A DNA stretch of 64,000 nt, from assembly GCA_026986375.1 (NCBI GenBank), contig JALSOQ010000022.1:1-64000 (forward strand). Direction: 5' to 3'. The DNA comes from Archaeoglobaceae archaeon (lineage in GTDB: Archaea; Halobacteriota; Archaeoglobi; Archaeoglobales; Archaeoglobaceae). The translations under genes were made by a program, and so were the position numbers. The notes beneath the pieces were generated by a model. That model saw only the letters and a list, made by a program, of their open reading frames with translations, did no database searches and was not told the origin of the DNA. Position 1 is the stretch's first letter. The number at the start of each line of letters is the position of its first letter. Positions 5,579 to 44,452 of this stretch are shown here, one piece after another.

Positions 5579-5646
5579 CCCAACCGCTATATACCGCAAC
5601 CCTTAAAAAGGTATGGGCGATGATGAAAGGGCCCCACTGAGAGGTG

Positions 5647-6309
5647 ATGAGGGTCTTGAGTTCTGAGCTCTCGCTAAAAGCGGATCTCCACATCCACTCG
5701 AACCACAGCGACGGAAGGAGCTCCGTAAGGGATATTCTAAAAGTTGCGGTGGAAAGGAAAATAGATGTTGTATCGATCACGGATCACGATACCGTCGGCG
5801 GATCGCTCGAAGCTCTGGAGATCGTTAGAGAAGAGCACTTGCCAGTAATAGTCGTTCCGGGAGTCGAGATTTCCACGGCTCAAGGCCACCTACTGGCATA
5901 CGGAATTACGGAGGAGGTAGATCCGGGAATGGAAATGGACGAAACTGCGAGGATCGTTAGAGGTTTAGGAGGATTGACATCCCTCGCCCATCCCTTCCAG
6001 TTCTACAGACACGGAGCTTTAAGGCTAAGGTGCTTCGAAGTCGTCGATTGCGTTGAGGTCTTCAACGCGAAAAGTTTAAGGTTGTTCAACTGCCTTTCGG
6101 AGATTTTCCGGAGGAGATACGGGAAGGGGAAAACTGCAGGAAGCGACGCGCATAAGGCTGATTTCGTCGGATACGGGATTATAACAGTCAGAATTGAGGA
6201 GGTTTCGATCGAAGGAATACTAAAAGCTTTGAGAGAGGGGAGGGGTTACGTGGAAGGGAGATGTGCGATGTTCGAGCAGTTATGGATCCGATATCGCAAC
6301 CAACGTTAG
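5647..6309 (+). CDS. PHP-domain metal-dependent phosphoesterase
   Basis: A PHP-family hydrolase of about 220 residues, the family of RNase AM/YciV and histidinol phosphatases. Metal-ligand motifs are visible: DLHIHSNHSDG near the N terminus, DHDTVGG, GVEIS, LAHPF and GSDAHK. The substrate cannot be read from sequence. The start is ambiguous. ATG 5647 sits directly on a GAGGTGATG ribosome-binding sequence, so TTG 5656 at proper spacing is an alternative. The 3' end overlaps the convergent MFS gene by 30 bp. Confidence 0.85.
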   Translation: MRVLSSELSLKADLHIHSNHSDGRSSVRDILKVAVERKIDVVSITDHDTVGGSLEALEIVREEHLPVIVVPGVEISTAQGHLLAYGITEEVDPGMEMDETARIVRGLGGLTSLAHPFQFYRHGALRLRCFEVVDCVEVFNAKSLRLFNCLSEIFRRRYGKGKTAGSDAHKADFVGYGIITVRIEEVSIEGILKALREGRGYVEGRCAMFEQLWIRYRNQR

Positions 6310-6822
6310 CCCGAAGACTATCATGACGAAAGCCGTCCTTAGCATTAACCTGAACCCAAAGAACTCCGCGAGAAATCCTCCCAAAACCGGTCCTATTACC
6401 CATCCCAAGTTCCATACCGTCGTGTAGATCCCCATAGATCTTCCCCTCTCATCCCTTTCGGACAGATCCGCTATGTATGCCGGTGCTACGGTTCCAATCG
6501 TCGCCCAGGCGAACCCTTCGAGAACGTGAATGGGGATCGCATATACGTAGTAGTGGATTAGGGAATAGAAGAGCATCACTAAGGCGAAAGCTATCTGGGA
6601 TATAACGACCATGGGCTTTCTTCCGATTCTGTCCGATATGGCTCCTATTGCGAAGGATGTGATCACACCGGTTAAGGCACCTATGGTGAAGAGAAAACCC
6701 ACAGCCGTTTCACTCGCCTTCAGTTCCCTCGAAAGGTAGATAGGCAGAACGGAATAGACCATGCCGGAAGAGATCATGAGAGGTAGCAGGGATACGCAGA
6801 ATGTCACAACCTTTCTGTTCAT
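6280..6822 (-). CDS. MFS transporter, N-terminal half only
   Basis: A membrane protein of 180 residues with six predicted transmembrane helices and a clear MFS motif A (GAISDRIGRKP) between helices 2 and 3. MFS permeases normally have 12 helices and about 400 residues. This one stops with VAISDP right after helix 6 and has no second half downstream, because the convergent PHP gene occupies that DNA. It may be a truncated pseudogene or, less likely, a half-transporter that dimerises. The start overlaps the stop of the upstream fusion gene by 4 bp, so the two are co-transcribed. The substrate is unknown. Confidence 0.75.
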   Translation of the reverse strand: MNRKVVTFCVSLLPLMISSGMVYSVLPIYLSRELKASETAVGFLFTIGALTGVITSFAIGAISDRIGRKPMVVISQIAFALVMLFYSLIHYYVYAIPIHVLEGFAWATIGTVAPAYIADLSERDERGRSMGIYTTVWNLGWVIGPVLGGFLAEFFGFRLMLRTAFVMIVFGLTLVAISDP

Positions 6823-8039
6823 GGTTCTTCCAACTCCTTTTTAAGCCTGCGGTAGAATTCGAGCATGAACTCGTGCCTTTCCTCGGCGATCTTCTTGGCG
6901 GTTTCCGTGAACATCAGATCCTTAAGCTTAAGCAGTTTCTCCTCGAAGTGTCTGAGAGTTTCTTCAATGCTCCTCCCCCTCTCCCCGCTGAACATGAAAG
7001 CCCTCGCCACTCCTATCGCACCCATAGCATCCAGCTTGTCCGCGTCGCTCAGAACCTTCGCCTCTATCGTTTTGGGTTCAACTCCTGAGCTGAAGGAGTG
7101 TGCCTCTATGCAGTGAACTACCTTCGCTATGAAATCTTCATCGCATCCTTCCTCCCTCAAAATCCTCTCCGCAACCTTAGCACTTTCCACTGCATGATTC
7201 GGCATGTCCCTCGCAACGTCGTGGAGCTCAGCAGCTTTCTCCACTACTTTCAAATCCGCCCCCTCCTTTTCGGCTATGTGAACAGCCATCCTCTTCACCC
7301 TCTCCACATGCCCGTAATCGTGGGACGGTGACGTTTTTCTAACCACCGCCCTAACCCCACTCCTCTCCTCGAATTCGGCGACAACTTCGAGCCACTCCGG
7401 ATTCAGAACTTCGATGAGATCGTTGAATATCTTCTCAACCACCGCTTCGTGATGCATCGCCCTATTTCTGAAACTTTTGAAGTATTCGTCGAGCGACTCG
7501 TATTCTATCAGCCTGTTCCTCGGCCTATACCTTATCCTTATTTTGGCGTAATCCCTTCTCCCCGTAACGGGACAGATGCAAGTAAAATCGGAATAGACGA
7601 ATTCCGCCTCGTGCCTCCCGTATACGTTGGGAATAGTTCTGATCTTCCTAATTTTAACGGATTCGAGGAATTTCAAGAGCTCTTCCTCGCTTTTGGCGAC
7701 CGCGGTTGAGAAGTAGAGGGGCCAAGGGGACTTGACTTCCTTAGGACAGAACGCTACGATCGGCTTACCCTTCATGGCGGAAACTACAACCTCCGCCATC
7801 GCCCCGAAACTCGGATTCGTGGCTATCAGAACTATTACATCAGCCTTCCCGCAGAATTCCAAGTCCCTCTTGACGATCTCGTCCCATAGCCCAGGTTTAT
7901 CTCTGAAATCCTCGACATCGCTGTAATCGACCACGAGCTGATCCAAAACATCGTAACCCCTCTCCCTCAAAAACCTCTGCAACCTCCTTATCTCCTCGAT
8001 TCCTCCGTATCCTATGGATCCGCACACTAAAACTCTCAT
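6819..8039 (-). CDS. Three-domain fusion: deoxyribosyltransferase-like, QueF-like and HD phosphohydrolase
   Basis: A single 406-residue ORF with three recognisable modules. Residues 1-125 resemble nucleoside 2-deoxyribosyltransferases (start MRVLVCGSIGYGG; PSFGAMAEV). Residues about 140-235 are a T-fold QueF-like unit. The QueF cysteine (C156 in CICPVTG), the Asp seven residues later (D163) and the Glu 42 residues later (E198) keep the spacing of B. subtilis QueF. The NADPH-binding motif is altered, with Glu and Asp at both lysine positions. Residues about 238-406 are an HD hydrolase (HDYGHVERVK, ELHDVARD). A deazapurine or archaeosine-related role is inferred. ATG 8039 is preferred over 8072 because ATTTAAG lies about 29 bp upstream. 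Confidence 0.8.
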   Translation of the reverse strand: MRVLVCGSIGYGGIEEIRRLQRFLRERGYDVLDQLVVDYSDVEDFRDKPGLWDEIVKRDLEFCGKADVIVLIATNPSFGAMAEVVVSAMKGKPIVAFCPKEVKSPWPLYFSTAVAKSEEELLKFLESVKIRKIRTIPNVYGRHEAEFVYSDFTCICPVTGRRDYAKIRIRYRPRNRLIEYESLDEYFKSFRNRAMHHEAVVEKIFNDLIEVLNPEWLEVVAEFEERSGVRAVVRKTSPSHDYGHVERVKRMAVHIAEKEGADLKVVEKAAELHDVARDMPNHAVESAKVAERILREEGCDEDFIAKVVHCIEAHSFSSGVEPKTIEAKVLSDADKLDAMGAIGVARAFMFSGERGRSIEETLRHFEEKLLKLKDLMFTETAKKIAEERHEFMLEFYRRLKKELEEP

Positions 8040-27513: not shown

Positions 27514-28545
27514 ATGAGGCTGAGCAGGAGGAACTTCCTTAAGCTCGTAGCGGCGATGGGAGCAACGGCTTTTCTTTCGACATACAAAGCTGAGGTCGTT
27601 GAAGCGCTGAATGAGGTGAAGGACTACTGGCACATATGCTGGCTCAACGGAGGTGCTTGCACGGGATGCACGATTTCCTTTGCTCAAGCTACGGATCCGG
27701 ACATACTCGAAATATTTACGAGCATAACCGTAGGAAATTCGAGACTTCCGATAGCCCTTCCGGACTACATGGAAACCATCGAGCCCGCATCAGGCTGGCT
27801 CGCGGAGCATTTGAAGGAGAGGTGGAAGAAGGGAACTAAGGGAAGGAGGATTCTCATAATCGAAGGGGCTATTCAGAAGAAGGGATACTGCGTTATAAGG
27901 GGTAAAGATTTCAGTGAGCACGTTTTGGATGTGATTGACTACGCGGATCACATAATTGCCTTCGGAGCCTGCGCGTGTTTTGGAGGAATTCCTTCGTCCC
28001 ATCCCAATCCGAGCGGTGCTAAGGGTTTGCAGGAGTTTTTAAGGGAAGAGGGAAGGGACGATCTTGCAAGCAAAGTTATAAATGTCCCTTGCTGTCCCGG
28101 GCATCCGGATCACCTCGTAATAACGCTTACCGCGGTGATGCTCGGTATGAAGTTGGAACTCGACCAGCACAACCGTCCCAAGCTGTTCTTCGGAAGGAAC
28201 ATGCACATGGAGCTCTGTCCATACAGGCCATACTACGACATGGGAATATTCGAGACGAAGCCGGGGGAGGAAGGGTGTAGGTATAAGTTCGGATGTAAAG
28301 GGCCAGACGTTTACACCGATTGCGCTCTCAGGAAGTGGAACAACCACGTGAGCTACTGCGTGCAAGTCGGAGCACCTTGCATCGGTTGCGCTGAACCGGG
28401 ATTTCCAGATAGGTTCATTCCGTTCTACGAGCCGATAACGAACAGGAGGCCGTTCTTCAACATAGATCCGAACTACGTTTGGGTTGGAGGAGCGGTGTTG
28501 GCCGGAACTGCTTTGATGAAAAAGAAGAGGGGTGAGGAGGAATGA
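27514..28545 (+). CDS. vhtG: [NiFe] hydrogenase small subunit (Vht/group 1 type)
   Basis: The iron-sulfur electron-transfer subunit of a membrane-facing uptake hydrogenase, 343 residues. A twin-arginine signal (LSRRNFLKLVAAMGATAFL) shows export across the membrane in folded form. Proximal cluster cysteines are in NGGACTGCT and GACACFGG; medial and distal cluster residues follow in CCPGHPDH, CRYKFGCKGP and GAPCIGCAEPGFPD. A C-terminal hydrophobic segment (VWVGGAVLAGTALMKKKRG) anchors it in the membrane. It overlaps the large-subunit gene by 4 bp (ATGA). Confidence 0.95.
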   Translation: MRLSRRNFLKLVAAMGATAFLSTYKAEVVEALNEVKDYWHICWLNGGACTGCTISFAQATDPDILEIFTSITVGNSRLPIALPDYMETIEPASGWLAEHLKERWKKGTKGRRILIIEGAIQKKGYCVIRGKDFSEHVLDVIDYADHIIAFGACACFGGIPSSHPNPSGAKGLQEFLREEGRDDLASKVINVPCCPGHPDHLVITLTAVMLGMKLELDQHNRPKLFFGRNMHMELCPYRPYYDMGIFETKPGEEGCRYKFGCKGPDVYTDCALRKWNNHVSYCVQVGAPCIGCAEPGFPDRFIPFYEPITNRRPFFNIDPNYVWVGGAVLAGTALMKKKRGEEE

Positions 28546-30215
28546 AGGTCGTAATAGACCCAGTAACGAGGATCGAAGGACACCTGAGGGTTACGATGGA
28601 ATTGGAGAGCGTTTCCACTAAAACCGGAAACTGGTTCGTCGTTGGAAAGGCTTACAGTAGCGGAATGATGTTCAGAGGTTTCGAGATATTTCTTAAGGGT
28701 AAGGATCCGAGGGATGCCTTCTTCTTCACCCAGAGAATTTGCGGAGTTTGCCCCGCAGCCCATGCGGAAGCTTCAAATCAGGCTTTGGACATAGCCTTCG
28801 ATGCCGTTCCGGTCCCACCGGCGGCGACGCTTATAAGGAACATAATCCAGTGCGCATACTACATCTACGACCACATGATACACACCTATTTGCTCGTAGG
28901 GCCGGAATTGGGGATTCTTTGCAAGTATCCGCCGATGATACCTCCGGTTTTGGGAAAGGAAGGAATAGCCAAGATGGGATTGGGAAGTAGCTACGCCAAG
29001 TGCATAGAGATGCAGAGGAAGGCGAACGAGATAGTGGCGATATGGGGTGGTAAGTTCCCCCATCACGCATGCGGTTACCCGGGAGGAGTTACGGTAAAGC
29101 CTACGAGCGAGAGAATATCTCAGACGGTTGCGAGGGCTGTAGAGCTATGGGAGTTCGTAGCGAAAACGATGATTAGAGACATTCAGGCGATAATTCAGGC
29201 GAACGAGACCGTGGGGGAGAAGGTGAGCGAGATTTTAGGGCTGAACATAAGGGGCTTGGAGGACATAGGTGTCGGAACGGGCAACTTCCTGAGCTACGGA
29301 ATGCTTCCCGATCCAGAGAACTACGAAGACTGGCTTAAGGTCGCCTACGGGGAGAAGGGAAGGAGGAAAAGTGCTGTTTTCCATGCGGGAGCCTGGGACG
29401 GGAGTTTCAAGGACTTCGACCTCAAGAAGATTCAGGAGTTCGTGAAATACGCTTGGTATTCCGACGAATACTCCGGAAAGAGGCCGGATGAGGAGGAGAC
29501 TGTAGTTGAGTTGAACAAACCCGGAGCTTATTCGTGGATAAAGGCTCCGAGATACGACGGGAAGGTTTACGAGGTAGGGCCTTTGGCGAGGATGGTAAAC
29601 ACCTTCGGCCTAAGCTGGAGGATCCCGAGGGTCCATCCGATCACCGGCGAGGACTTGGGAGACTTCGTTTACAAGGTCAGAAATCCGAAGGGTTCGGTTT
29701 TGGACAGAGTGGTAGCGAGGGTCGCGAACGCTCTGATATGCGCGAACAAGCTGATAGAGTTCGCCAAGATGCTGATGGAGTTCAAGGATTCGTCGATATG
29801 CAAATACAAGGACGTTCCGGAAACGGGAGAGGGATTCGGACTTTACGAGGCTCCGAGAGGAGCTCTGCTACACTACCTCAAGATAAAGAACAAGGTTATA
29901 GAGAGGTATCAGTGCGTAGTTCCGAGCACGTGGAACCAGAGTCCGAGGGATGATATGGGGCAACCGGGAGTGATGGAGCAATCTTTACAGTGCGGAACGA
30001 CTTGGTTGCCCACCATGGACGTTCCTACCGTTTGTAGCGCCATATGGGGTGAGGATTACGGAAACCTTCTTAGGAAGGCTTTGGCACCTCTCGGACTGGC
30101 CGAACTTAACATGGAACCCGTAAACGGGCAGAAGTTCAACACGACTTTGGCTTTGCTCATCATCAGAAGCTTCGACCCGTGCATAGCCTGTGCGGTGCAC
30201 GTTATAAGCAAATAA
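28542..30215 (+). CDS. vhtA: [NiFe] hydrogenase large subunit (Vht/group 1 type)
   Basis: The catalytic nickel-iron subunit, 557 residues. The L1 motif RICGVCPAAHAEAS and L2 motif DPCIACAVHVISK supply the four active-site cysteines. The C terminus ends only four residues after the His of L2 (VISK), so the peptide removed by the maturation protease is very short. The N terminus VIDPVTRIEGHLRV is typical of the group. It is partnered with vhtG. No cytochrome b subunit or maturation protease gene follows. A T-run after the stop (30216-30222) may end the transcript. Confidence 0.95.
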   Translation: MKVVIDPVTRIEGHLRVTMELESVSTKTGNWFVVGKAYSSGMMFRGFEIFLKGKDPRDAFFFTQRICGVCPAAHAEASNQALDIAFDAVPVPPAATLIRNIIQCAYYIYDHMIHTYLLVGPELGILCKYPPMIPPVLGKEGIAKMGLGSSYAKCIEMQRKANEIVAIWGGKFPHHACGYPGGVTVKPTSERISQTVARAVELWEFVAKTMIRDIQAIIQANETVGEKVSEILGLNIRGLEDIGVGTGNFLSYGMLPDPENYEDWLKVAYGEKGRRKSAVFHAGAWDGSFKDFDLKKIQEFVKYAWYSDEYSGKRPDEEETVVELNKPGAYSWIKAPRYDGKVYEVGPLARMVNTFGLSWRIPRVHPITGEDLGDFVYKVRNPKGSVLDRVVARVANALICANKLIEFAKMLMEFKDSSICKYKDVPETGEGFGLYEAPRGALLHYLKIKNKVIERYQCVVPSTWNQSPRDDMGQPGVMEQSLQCGTTWLPTMDVPTVCSAIWGEDYGNLLRKALAPLGLAELNMEPVNGQKFNTTLALLIIRSFDPCIACAVHVISK

Positions 30216-41649: not shown

Positions 41650-42570
41650 ATGAAGCATCTGATATCAATGGCAGATCTAACGCCAGAGGAGCTCGAAGAG
41701 ATTCTCGAACTTGCAGAGAAGCTCAAGGAGGAGAGATATAAAGGGAGAGTTACGGACTACTTAAAGAACAAGAGTCTTGCGATGATATTCGAGCTCCCCT
41801 CAACCCGAACCAGAATCTCTTTTGAAGTCGCAATGACCGATTTGGGCGGGCATGCCCTCTATTTAAGCTGGAACGACCTGCAGTTGGGAAGGGGTGAGCC
41901 GATAAAGGATACCGCCCGTGTTCTAAGCAGATACGTCCATGCGGTTATGATGAGGGTTAGAAACCACGAAACGATCGTGGAATTTGCGAAATACTCCTCT
42001 GTTCCGGTTATAAACGGTTTGAGCAACCTTGAGCACCCCTGCCAGATAATAGCCGATCTTCTGACGATTAAGGAGTATAAGGGTAATCTGAAGAACGTCA
42101 GGTTGGCTTGGGTTGGAGATGGTAACAACGTCTGCAACTCCCTGATTCTGGCTTCCGCTTTGACGGGAATGAAGATGGTCGTGTCAACTCCGAAGGGTTA
42201 CGAGCCGAACGAAGAAATAGTCAAGAAGGCTCTGGAGATGGGTGCGAATTTGGAGTTCGAGCCGGATCCGACCAAAGCCGTGAGGAATGCGGACGTGATA
42301 TATACGGACGTATGGGTTTCGATGGGGCAGGAGGCTGAGAGGGAGAAGAGGTTGAGGGATTTTGCGAAGCATCAGGTCAGCGAAGCTCTAGTAAGCATGG
42401 CCAAGGATGACGTAATAGTCATGCACTGCCTGCCAGCACACAGGGGGGAGGAGATAACCGAGGAGGTTCTGGAAGGTGAGCATTCGATAGTATTCGATCA
42501 GGCCGAAAATAGGTTGCACGCTCAGAAGGCCATCCTGCTCAAGCTTATTGGGGGTGAAGAGGTTGACTGA
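41650..42570 (+). CDS. argF: Ornithine carbamoyltransferase
   Basis: Forms citrulline from ornithine and carbamoyl phosphate. At 306 residues it is normal in length. The carbamoyl-phosphate motif is [13 protein letters not shown] near residue 47. [15 protein letters not shown], the ornithine-loop VSMGQE and the catalytic [12 protein letters not shown] follow. It shares its 3' end with the nadE start region, so the two genes are probably co-transcribed although functionally unrelated. Confidence 0.97.
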
Positions 42571-44452
42571 TTGGAAAGCCGTAGTGGATAGGATCACGGA
42601 GTTCATAAGGAAGGTCGTCAGCGAGGCGAACGCCGATGGAGTTGTAGTCGGATTGAGCGGGGGAGTTGACAGCTCAACGACGGCATTTCTCTGCGTCAAA
42701 GCTCTGGGAAAGGATAAGGTTCTCGGAATAATCATGCCAGAAAGGGGAGTTACGAGGGAGGAGGACATAGAGGATGCTCTAAAAGTTTGCGAGATTTTGG
42801 GAATAGACTACAAGTTCGTCGAAATCAATCCGATGGTCGAAGTTTTTTTGAACGAGCTCGGAGAGGGCAATAGGATTGCTGTGGCGAATCTAAAGCCGAG
42901 AATTAGAATGATCATAAACTACTACTACGCTAACAACATGAACAGACTCGTTGCCGGAACTGGAAACAAGAGCGAATTGATGACTGGCTATTTCTGTTAC
43001 GATGAAAAGACGAGGGTCTTGACGACGGAAGGCTTGAAGACGTATAGGGAGCTGAAGCCCGGAGACGTTGTGTTTTCGCTCAACTTGAATACCGGTAAGG
43101 TTGAGGAGGTTCCGGTTAAAGCCGTTTACACTTTCGAATACGAGGGTGAGATGATCCACATAAGGGGTAAGAGGACGGATCTGCTCGTTACTCCAAATCA
43201 TAGAATGCTCATCGTAAAGAATGGATTGAAGTTCGTTCAGGCTGAAGAGTTTTTGAATAAGAAGTTCAGCCTCCCGATTCCCACACCTTGGGACGGGATC
43301 ATGGATATGGATTACTTCAACACGACGGAGTTTCAGAGAGATCTCTACCACAACACCAATGTGCTACCCGAAAACATGCCGATTGAACCGTTCCTATATC
43401 TCATGGGTCTTTACATAGGAGACGGAACTTGCTCGACTTACGACGTGAAATCTTCGATAAAGGTAGAGGACAGGGAAGAGTGGATTAAAAATAGAGACGA
43501 GAGGGGAAGGTTTGCTCCGGCAGATGGCGAACGTAAGCCGGTTACATACAAAGCTCACAGCGTTTATTTTGCCATTCTGGAGCACGATAAGGCGAGGGAT
43601 AAGCTGATAGAAACCTTAGAAAACTTGGAGATAAGATACAGAGCCTACAGAAATTTTGTCAGAGTCAATTCAAAGGTTCTTCACCGAATATTCAGGCAGT
43701 GCGGAAGTAGGGCTGAAGAGAAGAGAATTCCTAGATGGGTTCTGAAGCTGCCACCCAAGAAGCTGATATGGGTTTACAGGGGTTTGATGGACAGCGACGG
43801 TTGGGGATACCAGAACTATCAGACTATATCATACAACCTTGCGTTGAACATCGTTGAGTTGTGTGCAAAGCTCGGAATGCACGCGACCATATCCGTCAGA
43901 CCTCCAAAAACCACCGAATACAACGGAAAGATCATAAGAAGTAGGAGGTCGTTCGTCGTAACGATAGCTAAGAACGTAAGAACGACTTCGATCTATCCTT
44001 CGAGCGTTTCGAAGGTTCACTACAAGGGGATAGTGTGGTGTCCGGATGTCCCACCACATCACAACTTGCTCGTGGAGAGGAACGGAAAGTTCACATTCTG
44101 CGGAAACACGAAGTATGGGGACGGAGGAGTCGATTTCTTGCCGATTGGAGACCTCTACAAAACCGAAGTTTTCGAACTCGCGAAGTTCTTAGGAGTTCCT
44201 AAGAGGATCATAGAGAAGGCTCCGTCGGCCGGGCTGTGGGTGGGGCAGACGGATGAAGGGGAATTGGGGATTACCTACGTGAAACTCGACACGATTCTCA
44301 AAGCACTTGAGAAAGGAGTTAAGCCTGAAGAGATTCCGAGGAGGTTCGACGTCAGCGAGGAGGAGGTCAGAAGGGTTTTGGAGATGGTCGAAAAGAGCAG
44401 GCATAAGAGAGAACCTCCGCCGATCGCAACGGTTAGAGATCTCGTGGATTAA
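42563..44452 (+). CDS. nadE: NAD synthetase (ammonia-dependent) interrupted by an intein
   Basis: Amidates deamido-NAD using ammonia and ATP. The extein is 258 residues (from TTG 42563), with the PP-loop [14 protein letters not shown] and [14 protein letters not shown]. There is no glutaminase domain. The extein is broken between [13 protein letters not shown] and [21 protein letters not shown], inside the conserved ATP and substrate-binding segment, by a 371-residue intein at 42995-44107. Excision would restore a normal NadE. TTG 42563 is preferred because GGGGGTGA lies 5 bp before it. TTG 42548 and GTG 42554 are alternatives. The 5' end overlaps argF. Confidence 0.94.
42995..44107 (+). other. 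Intein in NadE with LAGLIDADG homing endonuclease
   Basis: A self-splicing element of 371 residues. Block A starts with Cys1 ([10 protein letters not shown]). Block B holds TPNHR (Thr66, His69). Two LAGLIDADG motifs are LMGLYIGDG at 136-144 (Asp143) and YRGLMDSDG at 261-269 (Asp268). Block F is [14 protein letters not shown], and block G ends FCGN with Asn371. The penultimate residue is Gly, not the usual His, and the +1 extein residue is Thr. All splicing nucleophiles and both endonuclease aspartates are present, so both activities look intact. The frame is continuous with NadE on both sides. Confidence 0.93.

Follow-up and report, generated by a model that had tools for sequence, protein, structure and literature searches.

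An NDT-QueF protein of Archaeoglobi, fused to an HD domain in one species, as a candidate enzyme for salvage or clean-up of 7-deazaguanine nucleotides

Results

A three-domain protein encoded at the locus

We analyzed a window of 64,000 nucleotides from an Archaeoglobaceae archaeon (the source genome; assembly GCA_026986375.1, contig JALSOQ010000022.1, positions 1 to 64,000). A minus-strand open reading frame (ORF) of 406 codons starts with the ATG at 8039 and terminates at 6819-6821, and its start methionine is the same as that used in related proteins (Table 1). From the N terminus, the predicted protein consists of a deoxyribosyltransferase (NDT)/DNPH1 fold, a QueF-family T-fold and an HD domain. 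The first-pass annotation had proposed that this single ORF holds three domains that are usually separate, and Pfam, phmmer and structure models bore this out: the QueF and HD domains passed their Pfam cut-offs, and the NDT domain was backed by relatives, phmmer and an AF2 model.

Downstream of the fusion gene we found a half-size MFS gene followed by a convergent PHP hydrolase gene. The 180-aa MFS protein matched the N-terminal half of MFS_1 only; genes of 174-191 aa are also present in genomes G015, G017, G033 and G035-G038, and because this short length recurs we regard the gene as a conserved half-size transporter and not as a broken one. In G015 and G017 (genus g4), and in only these two genomes, adenine deaminase and phosphoribosyltransferase genes lie ~2-5 kb from the NDT-QueF locus, an arrangement that fits purine-base metabolism.

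Table 1. Features of the fusion gene and its neighbours (window positions).
Feature	Position	Strand	Remarks
Three-domain ORF, 406 aa plus stop	6819..8039	-	ORF list; located at the same position in its genome
N-terminal NDT/DNPH1-like domain, residues 1-125	7665..8039	-	Ser8, Asp59, Ser77 and Glu83 conserved across the NDT-QueF family
QueF-family T-fold domain, residues 135-237	7329..7637	-	Cys156, Asp163, His197, Glu198
Altered NADPH-motif position, residues 179-186	7482..7505	-	EYESLDEY (QueF: E-x-K-S-L-K-x-Y)
Fusion junction, residues 235-240	7320..7337	-	K-T-S-P-S-H; stop and HD start codon here in relatives
HD domain, YpgQ-like, residues 238-406	6822..7328	-	H240, H244, H273, D274, D334, R346, F350, H364
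Half-size MFS transporter, 180 aa	6280..6822	-	Start overlaps fusion-gene stop; same order in relatives
Convergent PHP-domain metallohydrolase (CehA/McbA type)	5644..6309	+	Conserved neighbour in related genera

The N-terminal domain resembles 5'-monophosphate N-glycosidases

Residues 18-101 of the fusion matched Pfam Nuc_deoxyrib_tr with 20.2 bits, under the cut-off of 28.8. Despite this weak score we consider the NDT assignment sound, because standalone relatives, phmmer and the AF2 model agree. Standalone NDT proteins that are ~48-50% identical occur in another family of the phylum (genomes G221 and G205), and the one that we scored against Pfam reached 35.3 bits, over the cut-off. A phmmer search with the N-terminal domain retrieved Rcl/DNPH1 (E 9e-5), and the first Foldseek matches of its AF2 model (mean pLDDT 93.5) were 2'-deoxyribosyltransferase and DNPH1 structures. 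The nearest structural match was a 2'-deoxyribosyltransferase (E 1.3e-5); by sequence, the closest solved relatives were 5'-monophosphate hydrolases.

DNPH1 is a sanitiser of the nucleotide pool, in which E104 acts as the nucleophile, D80 as the acid and S98 as a phosphate ligand (PMC10603095). Glu83, Asp59 and Ser77 of the fusion align with these three residues and are invariant across the NDT-QueF alignment, so that the N-terminal domain reads as a putative 5'-monophosphate N-glycosidase. Its fold, catalytic Glu and Asp, and phosphate-binding Ser are common to DNPH1/Rcl and to 5'-mononucleotide N-glycosidases (BcmB, MilB), whereas it differs from DNPH1/Rcl in its fusion to QueF and in lacking the catalytic tyrosine. 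The position of DNPH1 Tyr24 is occupied by Leu4 in the fusion and is hydrophobic in all NDT-QueF members, and the standalone NDT relatives have His in place of Asp59; both features would speak against an N-glycosidase.

The QueF-like domain keeps its catalytic residues and has an altered NADPH site

Residues 163-236 matched Pfam QueF with 82.1 bits (cut-off 27.3), and the fusion protein also passed the QueF-II equivalog of NCBIfam (TIGR03139; 96.3 bits, cut-off 86.9). Cys156, Asp163, His197 and Glu198 are invariant in the NDT-QueF alignment, the Asp lying seven residues and the His-Glu pair 41 and 42 residues after the Cys; the catalytic Cys, Asp (+7) and Glu (+42) spacing noticed in the first-pass annotation thus corresponds to Cys156/Asp163/Glu198. 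The same annotation had read the NADPH motif as E-Y-E-S-L-D-E-Y, with both lysines replaced by acidic residues. This is the case in the fusion, but in relatives only the first replacement is constant: in all intact NDT-QueF proteins (14/14) the consensus E-(S/L)-K-(S/A)-(F/L)-K-(L/Y)-(Y/F/W) has become E-Y-E-S-L-x-x-Y, in which the first lysine is Glu and the position of the second carries Asp, Glu or Lys. The sequence E-x-(K/R)-S-L-K is retained in haloarchaeal standalone QueFs and in those of halovirus HCTV-1 and of Dp-1, a phage with demonstrated dPreQ1 in its DNA (PMC6884629). The altered motif argues strongly, if indirectly, against NADPH-dependent reduction by NDT-QueF, and the automatic annotation as preQ1 synthase that comes with passing the equivalog cut-off is probably wrong.

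The first structural match of a two-domain model (pLDDT 88.8) was the QueF thioimide complex 4f8b, and QueF-L also ranked high, with a TM-score of up to 0.91 on the target. At the sequence level the domain matched QueF with an E-value of 4.9e-16 (best match, B. subtilis QueF) and QueF-L with one of 1.4e-3, although similarity alone cannot separate the two (PMC6884629). C156 and D163 align with QueF-L chain 5jyx (154-222 to 19-87; C156 corresponds to Cys21). NDT-QueF therefore has relatives on two sides. Its best match in sequence and structure is the unimodular NADPH-dependent preQ0 reductase of the B. subtilis type, with which it has the T-fold and the Cys/Asp/His/Glu set and spacing in common, but from which it differs in having Glu for the NADPH-motif Lys throughout, a fused N-glycosidase-like domain and an archaeosine-making host. 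With QueF-L, the archaeosine synthase of Crenarchaeota, it has in common the thioimide Cys, the general acid/base Asp and a nearly identical fold, whereas QueF-L is a short, single-domain protein of lower sequence similarity whose occurrence is inverse to that of ArcS, an enzyme that the source genome encodes. NDT-QueF is an apparent independent case of the QueF fold losing its NADPH site, and as such bears on the question of how T-folds alternate between reduction and other reactions of nitriles.

The HD domain resembles the nucleotide pyrophosphohydrolase YpgQ

Pfam HD matched residues 242-339 with 50.6 bits (cut-off 22), and the best solved relative was YpgQ (5DQV), which cleaves NTPs and dNTPs, with dGTP and dATP as its best substrates (PMC8177086). 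All eight YpgQ residues named in that study are retained: the metal ligands H29, H58, D59 and D124 correspond to H244, H273, D274 and D334 of the fusion, and the substrate residues H25, R136, F140 and H158 to H240, R346, F350 and H364. The domain is thus predicted to convert NTPs to NMPs. Nucleotide dephosphorylation had initially been suggested for it; a role of this kind remains plausible, but the likeness is to an NTP pyrophosphohydrolase more than to a monophosphatase. YpgQ itself stands alone, whereas the HD domain here is fused to NDT-QueF.

NDT-QueF is a two-domain family, and the HD fusion is recent

We compared 55 genomes of the family and 59 of the class Archaeoglobi, with whole-genome searches kept within the phylum. 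A protein of ~238 aa with the NDT and QueF domains is encoded in 13/55 family genomes and in 15/59 Archaeoglobi genomes. Every QueF-family match in Archaeoglobi is such a fusion; standalone QueFs were found in only five genomes of the phylum sample, all of them outside Archaeoglobi. In G021 the NDT-QueF gene (C2, ~28152-28860) is split between frames within the QueF domain, and is either a pseudogene or an assembly error.

The HD part is present in 50 of the 55 family genomes, mostly as a separate gene and usually at another locus. In the close relatives G035-G038, G015, G041 and G042 it directly follows NDT-QueF, either overlapping it or within ~30 bases; it is distant from NDT-QueF in G033 and G048, and G017, an NDT-QueF genome that is 99% complete, lacks it. 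HD is therefore not an obligate partner of NDT-QueF. The three-domain form occurs in the source genome alone among Archaeoglobi and the phylum sample; a search for the same architecture in other Archaeoglobales, which the first-pass annotation had recommended, yielded only two-domain proteins, and we reject the idea of a shared three-domain architecture.

At the junction no reading frame retains the NDT-QueF stop codon or an HD start ATG, and all three parts are about equally similar to their counterparts in the nearest relative, G038 (80, 78 and 79% identity). A sequencing indel or joining error, which had been considered as an explanation of the fusion, is thus unlikely. In a tree of 13 NDT-QueF proteins, several forks of which are weakly supported, the fused protein falls inside the clade with an adjacent HD gene. 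The most economical order of events is that NDT-QueF came first, adjacency to HD followed and fusion came last. Taken together, a two-domain family and a three-domain fusion in one species are secure at the level of sequence; the HD domain was added recently to an existing two-domain protein, and the NDT-QueF core apparently represents a small, Archaeoglobi-specific and undescribed family of archaeal enzymes. No description of an NDT-QueF-HD fusion was found in the largely open-access literature searched. The full NDT-QueF architecture was found in none of the phage, plasmid or viral-contig records searched, which leaves a viral DNA-modification origin without support, and none of the anti-phage defence models matched.

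The host genome encodes an intact archaeosine pathway

In the source genome the QueC, QueE and QueD genes are clustered on contig 5, and contig 12 carries those for ArcTGT, ArcS and RaSEA, which together make up an intact de novo archaeosine pathway. Scores exceeded the cut-offs for TgtA (622.6 bits, cut-off 350), ArcS (525.6, 440), RaSEA (392.7, 212), QueC (224.3, 150) and QueD (98.1, 89); QueE, which falls under the equivalog cut-offs, was identified by homology and position. The presence of ArcS, singled out for checking at the outset, was confirmed for the source genome and for every NDT-QueF genome of the family (13/13), and RaSEA was found in 12/13, the exception being the 72%-complete G016. 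Because QueC, QueE, QueD, ArcTGT, ArcS and RaSEA are already encoded, the fusion is unlikely to replace ArcS, and we rejected archaeosine synthesis as its main role. The first-pass annotation had proposed archaeosine synthesis or salvage: the synthesis half is disfavoured by this gene set, and 7-deazaguanine chemistry coupled to base release is the part that we carry forward as a possible function.

In G048 and G021 (estimated 97-99% complete), which have both NDT-QueF and ArcS, neither QueC nor QueE could be detected, and these genomes may depend on imported preQ0. QueC and QueE are also missing from several genomes without NDT-QueF, and an apparent loss in G037 is due to a contig break; we saw no clear link between the presence of NDT-QueF and the loss of QueC/QueE.

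Discussion

A possible role in salvage or clean-up of 7-deazaguanine nucleotides

We tentatively propose, with a probability of roughly one in three (0.35), that the fusion is a nucleotide-degrading enzyme for the salvage or clean-up of 7-deazaguanine nucleotides. The link to 7-deazaguanines comes from the conserved QueF active site, and because QueF never occurs without a fused NDT domain in Archaeoglobi, base release would be tied to the QueF pocket. The YpgQ-like HD domain would first trim NTPs or dNTPs to the corresponding monophosphates; the DNPH1-like domain would then release the base by N-glycosidic cleavage, in which Glu83 would be the nucleophile and Asp59 the acid; finally, the QueF-like domain would take up the 7-deazaguanine base, Cys156 forming a thioimide with the C7 nitrile or amidine without NADPH. 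The substrates would be preQ0 or archaeosine nucleotides from tRNA turnover and the product preQ0, reusable by ArcTGT. A canonical arcTGT is unable to use the archaeosine base, which readily deaminates to preQ0 (PMC5485725), and reusable preQ0 would for this reason be the natural end product of the chain. Since this deamination is spontaneous, the QueF step would be less needed, and no enzyme would be strictly required for it.

A narrower version, which we regard as possible but rather doubtful, is that NDT-QueF is a dedicated archaeal salvage enzyme, a mononucleotide N-glycosidase joined to a non-reductive QueF, which would recover preQ0 for reuse from nucleotides of archaeosine or preQ0 and which in the source genome is supplemented by an NTP-trimming HD domain. 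Bacteria and eukaryotes are known to salvage queuine from queuosine nucleotides. In the literature searched we found no archaeal enzyme that recovers an archaeosine precursor from nucleotides, and NDT-QueF would be a small, testable candidate for this function.

Alternative readings

The main rival to salvage or clean-up, and one that we consider somewhat unlikely, is general nucleotide sanitation, in which the HD and DNPH1-like domains would break down surplus or non-canonical (d)NTPs as far as the base while the QueF fold would only bind guanine-like bases or oligomerize, with no nitrile chemistry. Such a role is consistent with the resemblance of HD to an enzyme that prefers dGTP and dATP, with the sanitising function of DNPH1, with the wide occurrence of HD without QueF and with the absent NADPH site; the invariance of Cys156, Asp163, His197 and Glu198 in NDT-QueF is, however, hard to explain by binding alone.

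That NDT-QueF is an amidinotransferase of the QueF-L type, acting on preQ0-tRNA as an alternative or redundant archaeosine synthase to ArcS with NDT as an accessory, seems improbable to us. Retention of the thioimide residues without the NADPH motif and the structural match to QueF-L would agree with it, but QueF-L is distributed inversely to ArcS (PMC5485725), whereas ArcS, and in all but one case RaSEA, accompanies NDT-QueF; furthermore, the sequence is nearer to bacterial QueF, and a Pfam search of the fusion found no tRNA-binding domain.

We place slightly less weight on a base-exchange or DNA-precursor enzyme, in which NDT would move 7-deazaguanine bases onto (deoxy)ribose 5-phosphate and so yield 7-deazaguanine (deoxy)nucleotides. 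The structural proximity of the N-terminal domain to a 2'-deoxyribosyltransferase is compatible with this activity, but its closest solved sequence relatives are hydrolases, any NTP products would be destroyed by the attached HD domain, and dpdA-like genes were noticed only beside standalone haloarchaeal QueFs and not beside NDT-QueF.

A genuine preQ0 reductase, making preQ1 as QueF does but through a remodelled NADPH site, is an equally poor prospect; it would account for the equivalog score and the best alignment being with B. subtilis QueF, but not for the K-to-E change at the first motif lysine in 14/14 intact proteins, and no archaeal cell pathway is known to use preQ1.

Other observations

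Near the contig start, the window contains on the minus strand (739-2305) a match to the nifH equivalog (453.6 bits, cut-off 394), then two P-II regulator genes. An NAD+ synthase gene on the plus strand (42548-44452) is likely interrupted in frame by an intein: its NadE match is divided in two, and the intervening part gives weak matches to Intein_splicing, Hint and LAGLIDADG. In the haloarchaeal-type genomes G353 and G264, a standalone QueF gene adjoins one for a protein of 344-346 aa that on visual inspection resembles a transglycosylase/DpdA, a pairing that suggests a 7-deazaguanine DNA-modification cluster.
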